This document shows, in pieces, positions 41,048 through 47,760 of a DNA stretch of 55,738 bases. Position numbers and translations under genes: made by a program. The notes below the pieces were generated by a model, which was given only the letters and a program-made list of their open reading frames with translations, ran no database searches and was not told where the DNA came from. The stretch lies in NCBI GenBank assembly GCA_021779935.1, contig JAJXZT010000007.1, positions 1-55,738 of the forward strand. Direction: 5' to 3'. The DNA is from Acidobacteriota bacterium (GTDB taxonomy: Bacteria > Acidobacteriota > Terriglobia > Terriglobales > Acidobacteriaceae). The first letter of the stretch is position 1. Each line of letters starts with the position of its first letter.

Positions 41048-43162
41048 ATGCATAAGCCGATTAAGTATGTTGAAAAGGCATTTACGTATGGCGCGAAGGC
41101 TGCGTGGGCGGCGTTCGAAAAGCTGAACAGCATTCATCCCAACCCATCGTTCACTCCGAAGTGGAGCGACAAGCCGCTACTGAAGTCGTATCAGAAGACG
41201 AAGCCGCCGCTGGGCTGGCCGCGTACGACGGACTCGCTGTGCCCGAAATGCGTGCCGGAGATTCGCCAGCAGATTCTGGACGGCAAGCTGCCGTACGAAA
41301 TCCTGCTCAACGAAAAGGTCGGCGAGATCAAGGCGCAGATCATCGAGCGGGACGGCAAGATCCTGATGGTGAAGGATTGTCCGAAGCATGGGCACTTCGA
41401 AGACGTGATGGCGATTGACACGGCGTTCTTCCGCCACCTGGAAGAAGTGTTTCCGGGACGCGATATTCGCGCGCACAACGATGAAAAACTGCACGACCAC
41501 GGGACTTCGACGGTGAAGTATGGGCGCGGATCGGTGCTGACGATCGACCTGACGAACCGCTGCAACATGATGTGCGATCCGTGCTTCATGGACGCGAACC
41601 AGGTGGGATTTGTACACGAGCTGACGTGGAACGAAATCAAGCAGATGCTGGACGACGCCATCACGATCAAGCCGAAGCGGCAGATGAGCGTGCAGTTCTC
41701 GGGCGGCGAACCGACCCTGTCACCGTACTTCCTGGACGCGGTGGCGTACTCGCGCAAGGTGGGATACAACTCGGTGCAGGCAGCAACGAACGGTATCGAG
41801 TTTGCGAAGAGTCCGGAGTTTGCGCGGCAGGCGGCGGAAGCCGGATTGCGTTATGCGTACCTGCAGTTCGACGGAATCGGCAACGCGGCGAACAGCCACC
41901 GCGCGGTGGGCAACCTGTTCGACGTGAAGCTGAGGGCGATTGAAAACCTGCACAGCGCGGGCGTGGACATTGTGCCGGTAACGACGATCGTGAACGGCGT
42001 GAACAACGAGCAGGTGGGACGCATCATCCAGTTTGCGCTGGATAATCCGAAGACGATTTCGTTCCTGTCGTTCCAGCCGGTGTCGTTTACGGGCCGCGAC
42101 GAGGAAGTGACGGATGAACGTCGCGCGGCACAACGCTACACGCTGAGCCACCTGGCGCATGACGTGAAGAACCAGACAGGACTGGGCGAGCCGACTCGCG
42201 ATTGGTTCCCGATCTCGTTCATGAGCACGTTCAGCGATTGGGCCGACGTGGTGCACGGACCGGACAAGGATTGGGGATCGCTGAGCTGCGGCTGCCATCC
42301 GAACTGCGGCGTGGGCATGGCGGTGATGATCGACAAGGAAACGAAAGAAGCAGTGCCGGTAACGGCTTTCCTGAACGGCGACCGGATTGCGAAAGACGTG
42401 GCGAAGGTGAACGACGCGGGACGCGGAAAGTTCCTGTCGATCGTGGGCATGTCGCTGGCACTGGGCCGGAACTACGATCCGTTCAAGGCGCCGAAGCACT
42501 TCCGGTTCATGGATCTGCTGAAGAAGTTCGACAAGACGTTTGGCGCGACGGACAAGGCCAACGAAAAATATGGCAAGTCGACGCCGGACCGCACGGTCGA
42601 CGACATCAAGAAGCGGCGGCAGGATCGCTGGAACTTCCTGTTCATTGCAGGCATGTGGTTCCAGGACCTGTTCAACTACGACTTCCGTCGGACGGAGCAA
42701 TGCATCATTCCGTACGCGACACAGGAAGGCGAAATCAGCTTCTGCGCCTATAACACGGGCGTGGGCTGGCGGAACATCATCGAGAAGATGCACATGACGG
42801 CGACGCTGACGAAGTGGTACGAAGAGCACGGCCGGCATGAGATCTTCGCGGGCGGCAAGAAGGTTGCGATGGAAAGCTCGGAGCACTCACTGGCTCTGAA
42901 CGAGGCGCACGTGCACGCCGACCGCAACCACACGCTGGACGACCTGGGAATCGCAAAGACGGCGCGCGAAGAGAAGTTGCGCGCACGCGATGCGAAGCTG
43001 AAAGGTACGGACCTGAAGACCGAGGCGGAAAACGCCAAGATGATGGCCCTGTATCGTCAGCACGTGCTGGGCGAGAAGCCGAAGCCGGAAGGCTTCGTGC
43101 CGCTGGGACAACTGGGCGCGACTCCGGCACCGGAAAAGAAAGAAGAAGTGTTCGGCGACTAA
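41048..43162 (+). CDS. Radical SAM protein, tetraether-synthase-like, 704 aa
   Basis: The radical SAM cluster is C172-N-M-M-C176-D-P-C179 in 'DLTNRCNMMCDPCFMDAN', followed by 'VQFSGGEPTLSPYFLDA' and 'IQAATNGI'-like 'VQAATNGIEF'. Before the barrel, 'TTDSLCPKC' and 'KDCPKHGHFEDV' form a rubredoxin-like four-Cys site. After it are 'LSCGCHPNCGVGMAVMID' and 'FNYDFRRTEQCIIPYATQEGEISFCAYNT', likely ligands for an auxiliary cluster. This architecture is that of the MJ0619/Tes family, which couples lipid tails into tetraethers or membrane-spanning lipids. It differs in lacking the 'CPxxCGxC' motif just before the core and has a long C-terminal Lys/Glu tail. A GAGGAG site precedes the ATG. Confidence 0.85.
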   Translation: MHKPIKYVEKAFTYGAKAAWAAFEKLNSIHPNPSFTPKWSDKPLLKSYQKTKPPLGWPRTTDSLCPKCVPEIRQQILDGKLPYEILLNEKVGEIKAQIIERDGKILMVKDCPKHGHFEDVMAIDTAFFRHLEEVFPGRDIRAHNDEKLHDHGTSTVKYGRGSVLTIDLTNRCNMMCDPCFMDANQVGFVHELTWNEIKQMLDDAITIKPKRQMSVQFSGGEPTLSPYFLDAVAYSRKVGYNSVQAATNGIEFAKSPEFARQAAEAGLRYAYLQFDGIGNAANSHRAVGNLFDVKLRAIENLHSAGVDIVPVTTIVNGVNNEQVGRIIQFALDNPKTISFLSFQPVSFTGRDEEVTDERRAAQRYTLSHLAHDVKNQTGLGEPTRDWFPISFMSTFSDWADVVHGPDKDWGSLSCGCHPNCGVGMAVMIDKETKEAVPVTAFLNGDRIAKDVAKVNDAGRGKFLSIVGMSLALGRNYDPFKAPKHFRFMDLLKKFDKTFGATDKANEKYGKSTPDRTVDDIKKRRQDRWNFLFIAGMWFQDLFNYDFRRTEQCIIPYATQEGEISFCAYNTGVGWRNIIEKMHMTATLTKWYEEHGRHEIFAGGKKVAMESSEHSLALNEAHVHADRNHTLDDLGIAKTAREEKLRARDAKLKGTDLKTEAENAKMMALYRQHVLGEKPKPEGFVPLGQLGATPAPEKKEEVFGD

Positions 43163-43184
43163 AAAGCCGGCATCAGGGAAATGC

Positions 43185-46071: not shown

Positions 46072-47760
46072 GTGAGCACGACATTTGCGACGACGAAGCG
46101 GCCCGGCCTGAAGATCATCCAACCGGAAAAGACATTTACGGGAGCACCGATTGAACCGGTGAAGCGAGGACTGCCGAAGCAGACGGAGTCGCTGTGTCCG
46201 GATTGCGGCAAGCTGATTTCCGCGCGGGTGTTCGAAGAGAACGGCAAGGTGATGATGGAGAAGACGTGTGCGGAACACGGAGATTTCAAGGACTGCGTGT
46301 TCAGCGACGTGAAGCTCTACATGAAGATGGAAGAGTGGGAGTTCGGCGACGGGCGCGGACTGGAGAATCCGGCGATCAACACGGGCGCGAATGCGAAGTG
46401 TCCGGACGATTGCGGACTGTGTTCGCTGCACACGTCGCATTCGGCGCTGGCGAACGTGGACCTGACGAACCGCTGCAACCTGACGTGCCCGGTGTGTTTC
46501 GCGAACGCGAATGCGGCTGGATATCTCTACGAACCGGACCTCGAACAGATAAGAGTGATGTTGCAGGCGCTGCGCGATGAGCGTCCGGTGGCCGGGCGCG
46601 TGGTGCAGTTCTCGGGCGGCGAACCGACGATCCATCCGCAGTTTTTTGAAATCCTTGCGATGGCGAGAGAGATGGGCTTTACGCACATCCAGGCGGCGAC
46701 GAACGGAATCATGCTGAACGACCTGGAGTTCGCGCGGAAGAGCAAGGAAGCGGGACTGGCGACACTCTACCTGCAATTCGACGGCGTGAGCGACGAGACA
46801 TATCGCAAGACGCGCGGAGAGCCGCTGTTCGAAAAGAAGATGAAGTGCATCGAGAACTGCCGCAAGGTGGGGATCAAGATCGTGTTTGTGCCGACGATCG
46901 TGAAGGGCATCAACGATCACGAACTGGGCGAGATCCTGCGAGTGGCAATCGAGAACGTGGACACGGTGAGCGGCATCAGCTTCCAGCCGGTGGCATTTAC
47001 GGGACGCATTTCGCGGCGCGAACTAGAGCAGAAACGGTTCACGCAGGCGGACCTGGTGCATGAACTGGCGAAGCAGACGGGAATGTTCGATACATACAAC
47101 GACTGGTATCCGCTGAGTAGCGTGACGCCGTTCTCGAAACTGATGGCAGCGATACGGGGCGAGGGCGTACCGACGATTTCGGCGCACCCGCACTGCTCGC
47201 TGGGCACGTATATGTTTGTGGACGAGAAATCGAAGAAGGCAGTGCCGGTGACGCGGTTTGTGGATTTGCCGGCGATGTTGCAGGACATTGAAGCGCTGGC
47301 GCAGAAGACGGAGAAGTCGTTCTTCAAGTTCTATCACCAGGTGAGTGCGTGGAATTCACTGAAGAAACATTTCAAGGAAGAGCTGGCGCCTCCGGGGCTG
47401 ACGTTCACGAAGTTCCTGCAAACGCTGCAAGGCATGACGAACAAGAAACTGGGGCGCGACGGGATGGACGGAACGTTTACGTACCGCACGCTGCTGGTGG
47501 CCGGCATGCACTTCATGGATCACTATAACTACGACGTGGAGCGCGTGAAGCGCTGCGTGATTCACTACGCGGCGCCGGACGGGAAGCTGTATCCGTTCTG
47601 CACATATAACTCGGGGCCGACGTATCGCGAGAAGATCGAGAAGAAGTACTCGATCCCGTTCGAGAAGCAGCTTGACCGATTTAACTTCGACAAGGCGAAT
47701 GGGTGTTGCGGAGGATGTTCGACGGACGCGAAGAAGACGGTTGCAATCGACAACGCATAA
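46072..47760 (+). CDS. Radical SAM protein, tetraether/membrane-spanning-lipid-synthase-like, 562 aa
   Basis: A GTG start follows GGAGAG. It shows the full MJ0619/Tes layout. A rubredoxin-like pair 'SLCPDC' and 'KTCAEHGDFKDC' comes first, then 'CPDDCGLCSLHTSHS' just ahead of the radical SAM core C135-N-L-T-C139-P-V-C142, 'VVQFSGGEPTIHPQFFE' and 'IQAATNGIML'. After the barrel are 'ISAHPHCSLGTYMFVD' and 'VKRCVIHYAAPDGKLYPFCTYN', and the protein ends 'CCGGCSTDAKK'. Archaeal Tes joins lipid tails by C-C bond formation between sp3 carbons, and related bacterial enzymes are proposed for diabolic-acid-type membrane-spanning lipids, which Acidobacteriota are known to contain. That function is inferred for this protein. 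A strong terminator follows. Confidence 0.88.
   Translation: MSTTFATTKRPGLKIIQPEKTFTGAPIEPVKRGLPKQTESLCPDCGKLISARVFEENGKVMMEKTCAEHGDFKDCVFSDVKLYMKMEEWEFGDGRGLENPAINTGANAKCPDDCGLCSLHTSHSALANVDLTNRCNLTCPVCFANANAAGYLYEPDLEQIRVMLQALRDERPVAGRVVQFSGGEPTIHPQFFEILAMAREMGFTHIQAATNGIMLNDLEFARKSKEAGLATLYLQFDGVSDETYRKTRGEPLFEKKMKCIENCRKVGIKIVFVPTIVKGINDHELGEILRVAIENVDTVSGISFQPVAFTGRISRRELEQKRFTQADLVHELAKQTGMFDTYNDWYPLSSVTPFSKLMAAIRGEGVPTISAHPHCSLGTYMFVDEKSKKAVPVTRFVDLPAMLQDIEALAQKTEKSFFKFYHQVSAWNSLKKHFKEELAPPGLTFTKFLQTLQGMTNKKLGRDGMDGTFTYRTLLVAGMHFMDHYNYDVERVKRCVIHYAAPDGKLYPFCTYNSGPTYREKIEKKYSIPFEKQLDRFNFDKANGCCGGCSTDAKKTVAIDNA

Follow-up and report, generated by a model that had tools for sequence, protein, structure and literature searches.

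A widespread acidobacterial relative of tetraether synthase that lacks one iron-sulfur cluster is a possible iso-diabolic acid synthase

The DNA analysed here, called the window throughout, is a stretch of 55,738 nucleotides from a soil-dwelling Acidobacteriota bacterium of the family Acidobacteriaceae, whose assembly spans 4.49 Mb in 72 contigs and is 99.02% complete. The family includes Edaphobacter, Granulicella and Terriglobus, since match coordinates in several of its genomes are those of genomes with named loci. Two genes of the window, here called A and B, encode radical S-adenosylmethionine (SAM) proteins related to the archaeal tetraether synthase Tes, and a gene for an envelope protein lies between them.

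41048 to 43162, plus strand: gene A, a Tes-like radical SAM protein of 704 residues without the N-terminal auxiliary cluster (open reading frame, Pfam, NCBIfam, alignment)
43240 to 45648, minus strand: DUF4139/MuiA-like envelope protein of 802 residues that contains an inserted carboxypeptidase-regulatory-like domain; a probable bystander (Pfam, NCBIfam, neighbourhood comparison)
46072 to 47760, plus strand: gene B, Tes by the NCBIfam cut-off, 562 residues, GTG start (open reading frame, NCBIfam, sequence search)

The DUF4139 gene converges on A with 77 bases between them and diverges from B with 423 bases between them, so the three genes do not form one operon.

A sequence-only reading of the locus had proposed that both radical SAM proteins are kin to Tes, and this is borne out by model scores and by the best solved relative. 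Both proteins match Radical_SAM and the HMPTM N-terminal zinc ribbon (PF23545) in Pfam. Against the NCBIfam Tes model NF045702, which has a cut-off of 450 bits, B scores 588.6 and A only 317.4. The best solved relative by sequence is in both cases GDGT-MAS (MJ0619; PDB 7TOL, 7TOM), with 7TOL matched at E values of 2.4e-142 for B and 1.2e-62 for A, and the two proteins are 37% identical to each other over residues 94 to 582 of A. A fold search with a structure model of A, which is of modest quality (mean pLDDT, the predicted local distance difference test, 60.2), places GDGT-MAS at the top with an E value of 2.4e-23, the next protein following at 1.0e-5; the superposition covers 568 alignment columns with a TM-score of 0.66 by target length. 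The model of B is poor (mean pLDDT 46.9), and the fold search was confined to A. The GMGT synthase Gms, likewise a radical SAM enzyme that carries auxiliary clusters and links lipid chains, is described as having a C-terminal SPASM domain (PMC11186832), which sets it apart from A and B, as neither has a SPASM match in Pfam at E ≤ 0.01.

The metal sites differ between the two proteins. In GDGT-MAS, the rubredoxin iron is reported to be held by C9, C12, C33 and H36, and the N-terminal auxiliary cluster, [Fe4S4]N, by C73, C77, C80 and a conserved histidine; the enzyme also holds the radical SAM cluster and a C-terminal cluster, [Fe4S4]C, with a labile ligand, Met439, whose mutation to alanine leaves robust activity (PMC9433317). 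The conserved histidine is H83 by our own assignment. In an alignment to MJ0619, B has every metal site, while A has all except the four ligands of the N-terminal cluster. All of the following lie on the plus strand.

41054 to 41128: A residues 3 to 27, predicted amphipathic N-terminal helix (structure model, hydrophobic moment)
41240 to 41389: A rubredoxin-type site C65, C68, C111, H114; the pairs are separated by a longer loop than those of B
41474 to 41533: A residues 143 to 162, the place of the lost N-terminal [Fe4S4] site, with no cysteine (alignment)
41561 to 41584: A radical SAM CX3CX2C motif, C172, C176, C179 (alignment)
42305 to 42745: A C-terminal auxiliary-cluster ligands C420, M536, C552, C566 (alignment to MJ0619)
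46195 to 46278: B rubredoxin-type site C42, C45, C66, H69
46399 to 46431: B N-terminal auxiliary-cluster motif C110, C114, C117, H120, that is, CPxxCGxC followed by histidine (alignment)
46474 to 46497: B radical SAM CX3CX2C motif, C135, C139, C142
47194 to 47601: B C-terminal auxiliary-cluster ligands C375, M479, C495, C510 (alignment)

The residues noted earlier for both proteins, namely the rubredoxin-like cysteine pairs, the radical SAM core and the auxiliary motifs of Tes, are thus found in each, and CPxxCGxC is indeed confined to the 562-residue protein. By both tests, score cut-off and N-terminal cluster, B is a member of Tes. A, B and GDGT-MAS agree in the order of their domains and all have the rubredoxin site, the radical SAM core and the C-terminal auxiliary cluster; A is most likely a worker of the Tes kind that nonetheless falls outside Tes by the same two tests. 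It differs further in the loop of the rubredoxin pairs (median of about 42 residues versus 20) and in the stretch after the last cluster cysteine (median of about 137 residues versus 34 in B). The predicted helix at the start of A may possibly be a membrane contact; the hydrophobic moment of residues 1 to 18 is 0.56, the best of 14 segments, and is matched by 0.05% of 2000 shuffles of that segment.

These patterns hold across relatives. In an alignment of 120 A-type and 50 B rows, in which some genes are counted twice (in a later alignment, 200 rows were reduced to 173), the ligands of the N-terminal cluster are absent from all 120 A-type rows, none of the four occurring anywhere, and no row lacks a rubredoxin or radical SAM ligand. 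The C-terminal cluster cysteines are present in 120, 116 and 116 of these rows and the methionine in 118, the remainder being gaps. We infer from this conservation, and not from a structure of A, which three cysteines bind [Fe4S4]C. The gate of MJ0619, Q268-S271-R275, reads Q-S-R in 120 of 120 A rows. Among the B rows, the N-terminal cluster is complete in 50 of 50 and the other sites are complete save for gaps in 2 or 3 rows. The ligand pattern of A also recurs in all 20 rows that were added from 18 further families.

A tree built from 53 proteins gathers the 27 A rows on one side of a branch with support of 100/100 and a long stem of 2.22 changes per column, so that A is a single clade across the phylum. 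Nearest to it are acidobacterial Tes proteins with complete clusters: L041 and L043 (100/99), and L039 with weak support. As these next relatives keep the complete set, the N-terminal cluster was probably lost a single time, before A became distributed over the phylum. Of the B proteins, the eight sampled from the window's family group as one set (99/97). A paralogue in Acidicapsa dinghuensis (L144) is nested in the A clade and lacks all three cysteines of the C-terminal cluster, and an A-like paralogue in Edaphobacter aggregans (L145) has a truncated frame; both may be non-coupling or decayed. In one metagenome-assembled genome (MAG), the A gene is split (L116, 8001 to 10109) into frames of 432 and 252 residues, either a broken gene or a sequencing error.

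The Tes model finds a match at E ≤ 1e-40 in 167 of 297 acidobacterial genomes that are at least 85% complete, and a match over its cut-off in 32. Within the window's family, a search at E ≤ 1e-150 detects A in 338 of 398 genomes; among the 256 with completeness of at least 90% and contamination of at most 5%, the count is 236. B occurs in 25 of the 398, with 24 proteins over the Tes cut-off and one fragment. Named loci were drawn from the best 80 of 592 relatives, and the genomes of 19 were searched: all 19 carry A, three of them with a second, weaker relative, and none has a match over the Tes cut-off.

Where B does occur in the family, A usually accompanies it. An A piece is found in 22 of the 25 B genomes, with none seen in G369, G403 and G501. 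Both genes are on one contig in 13 of the 25, from 8 genera (G000, G341, G428, G354, G449, G253, G418, G381, G111, G067, G397, G378 and G465), and in all 13, A is upstream of B on the same strand at a distance of 0.5 to 11 kb. By our own arithmetic, chance would place two genes no more than 11 kb apart in about 0.4% of genomes of 5.65 Mb, although the 13 linked cases share descent and are not independent. The idea of two paralogues at one locus with different cluster content therefore stands as far as the clusters and the association go. One B genome of the family, G403, is 100% complete and gives no A match at E ≤ 1e-50 except B itself; its genus mates G354 and G428 keep the linked pair, and G403 represents either a true loss or an assembly gap.

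Lipid phenotypes bear on which of the two genes might couple chains. The FMO protein, which we take to mark Chloracidobacterium within the phylum, is present in three of five genomes searched. Each of the three has three Tes-model matches, none over the cut-off, and L232, the one copy read from these genomes, is a complete A. Chloracidobacterium, a genus of a second class, has been reported with iso-diabolic acid (PMC12816986). In Edaphobacter, E. aggregans DSM 19364 is reported with 26.4% iso-diabolic acid, E. modestus DSM 18101 with 30.4% and E. lichenicola DSM 104462 with 11.8% (PMC11354219). The named-locus genomes of the first two strains have A and lack B; the two E. lichenicola genomes searched are from strains other than DSM 104462. 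Because the first two Edaphobacter strains and Chloracidobacterium are reported with the acid and show A without B, B is not needed for it and A is the better candidate for the coupling enzyme. In view of the same producers, E. modestus and E. aggregans, the proposal that the A-B pair makes iso-diabolic acid is not supported as it was put. Across the phylum, the acid is reported from subdivisions 1, 3, 4 and 6 of seven studied (PMC13274423).

At even chances, by analogy with Tes, A would couple iso-branched lipid tails in Acidobacteriota, and B, a full Tes, would be an optional partner on the same lipid pool. The observations beneath this proposal are homology, the retention and loss of ligands, distribution and the A-B linkage; from them we infer substrate, product and division of labour, with the mechanism taken by analogy. 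In the coupling of GDGT-MAS, a substrate carbon is reported to be bound to the sulfur of one of the clusters (PMC9433317). By such chemistry, A would join the terminal carbons of two iso-C15 chains to give iso-diabolic acid. A first radical, derived from SAM, would abstract a hydrogen from a terminal methyl group, a sulfur of the C-terminal auxiliary cluster would hold the carbon, and closure of the carbon-carbon bond would take a second radical, the N-terminal auxiliary cluster being dispensed with. B would perhaps perform the second coupling of a macrocycle, or act on another chain. The more specific form of the proposal, that A is the iso-diabolic acid synthase of Acidobacteriota, a phylum-wide clade with one iron-sulfur cluster fewer, and that B stands alongside it in a minority of genomes and alters the end product, is put forward tentatively, at slightly less than even chances.

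Several observations weigh against this proposal, in addition to the modest quality of the A model. Twenty of the 256 good family genomes have no A at E ≤ 1e-150, although split genes account for some of the misses. Of 28 B genomes from outside the family, 17 have no further A-type match, so there B is independent of A. Even within the family, A and B are unlinked, inside different long contigs, in G346, G340 and G326, and the assemblies of the remaining six of the 22 B genomes with an A piece leave linkage undecided. The near-universality of A in the family means that there is no known non-producer for contrast. Finally, S. usitatus is reported to have two Tes homologues and no detectable iso-diabolic acid, yet to make branched glycerol dialkyl glycerol tetraethers, or brGDGTs (PMC10087280).

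It is also conceivable, if rather unlikely, that a radical SAM enzyme of the Mss type encoded elsewhere makes iso-diabolic acid and that A and B carry out other lipid chemistry. Mss, from Thermotoga maritima, makes diabolic acids in bacteria and is a confirmed bacterial coupling enzyme that joins chains when expressed in E. coli (PMC11604127), and its homologues are reported from 11 of 97 acidobacterial MAGs of the Black Sea (PMC11868695). It is not A-type, as T. maritima has no Tes-model match at E ≤ 1e-40. The window's genome encodes 22 other Radical_SAM proteins. Thirteen of these pass a curated NCBIfam cut-off (MoaA, MiaB, RimO, TIGR04053, HpnJ, TIGR04013, MqnC, MtaB, HpnH, HemW, LipA, AmmeMemoRadiSam and RlmN), but nine reach none among the matches listed (E limits 1e-60, 1e-50 and 1e-20), which counts against A and in favour of this alternative: one is AhbD-like, one QueE-like, one Rv2578c-like, three have B12-binding matches (one over the Pfam cut-off) and three are others, and Mss could be among them. 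Set against this, A retains the full ligand set of the coupling site and occurs near-universally across a family of iso-diabolic acid producers. Less probable still is that B does the coupling wherever brGDGT-like lipids are made, A being an older relative of Tes that acts on a different lipid or on a non-lipid substrate. B is an orthodox Tes by the NCBIfam cut-off, and A sits on its long branch of 2.22 changes per column with extra N- and C-terminal parts. B is also present in G341, which we take to be Ca. Koribacter versatilis Ellin345. That organism is reported with iso-diabolic acid tetraesters (PMC13274423), but G341 carries A too, other producers of the acid lack B, and so does E. aggregans, reported to make brGDGTs (PMC8941075). 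Least probable of all is that A is a diverged relative of Tes that has lost lipid coupling. The N-terminal cluster is missing from every A row, and the Acidicapsa paralogue nested in the clade, without its three C-terminal cysteines, indicates that loss of function does occur there. A itself keeps the C-terminal cluster, and it is on a cluster sulfur that GDGT-MAS is reported to hold its substrate carbon (PMC9433317); moreover, A is about 80% identical across loci of Terriglobia and Bryobacterales, which argues for strong selection.

Bacterial homologues of Tes such as those treated here have already been proposed for brGDGT synthesis, including in S. usitatus (PMC8941075, PMC10087280). The single homologue reported there for E. 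aggregans, at 32% identity, must be A-type because that genome has no B. The portions of these two papers that were consulted contain neither a separation of types by cluster content nor the A-B linkage, and among titles and abstract openings we recognised no publication that splits two acidobacterial Tes types or gives their linkage. Nor were the two clades with different clusters, the near-universality of A or the A-B order seen in print in these searches. Branched GDGTs are used as proxies for temperature and pH, and the coupling enzyme with which Acidobacteriota make their building blocks is not established. Once a near-universal A is told apart from a sporadic B, the choice of gene for a first deletion or expression, and for counting as a marker in soils, follows. 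If A does couple chains, the N-terminal cluster of Tes would be dispensable for joining two sp3 carbons. DUF2229 (PF09989), which we take as a marker of PlsA/Ger, has no match in the window's genome; the control, T. maritima, matches, and so does L. lactis. There is only a hint here that the lipids of the window's organism may be ester-bound.

The suggestion that the DUF4139 protein may be related is not supported on the side of A: the gene is on the opposite strand, and a search with its DUF4139 portion at E ≤ 1e-5 gave nothing at 80 A loci. The likely start of the gene is at 45648, and the carboxypeptidase-regulatory-like domain sits within the DUF4139 match of Pfam; alignments with the homologues at L204, L205 and L213 cover both flanks of this insert but do not run across it. 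As a partner of A, the gene was rejected, since its matches at A loci (one at E ≤ 1e-10, five loci at E ≤ 1e-5) cover the inserted domain alone. On the B side, 17 neighbourhoods were compared (18 stretches, G341 lying in two), and a true DUF4139 homologue adjoins B in four: the window, G354, G428 and G340, in the last of which A is elsewhere. A weak tie to the B side may exist, perhaps mere inherited order, and the gene is probably a bystander. A search for other partners of A ended likewise: no neighbour family is common to more than 24 of 81 A loci (43 of which extend 7 kb or more to either side), and so there is no operon clue for A.

Some further neighbours were noted. Nine of the 17 neighbourhoods, the window not among them, have a gene for a secreted, lipoprotein-like protein of about 150 residues downstream of B and on its strand (for example L202, 9421 to 9864). 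An RlpA-like gene is much closer to A at several B loci than in the window, where a methyltransferase-like protein of 1139 residues (34249 to 37668) lies between it and A. The latter assignment is putative and rests on an NPPY motif, presumably of the kind typical of adenine DNA methyltransferases. Between B and a MutY-like gene at 52172, genes at 48516 to 52111 resemble type IV pilus minor pilins, with N-termini that look prepilin-like by eye.

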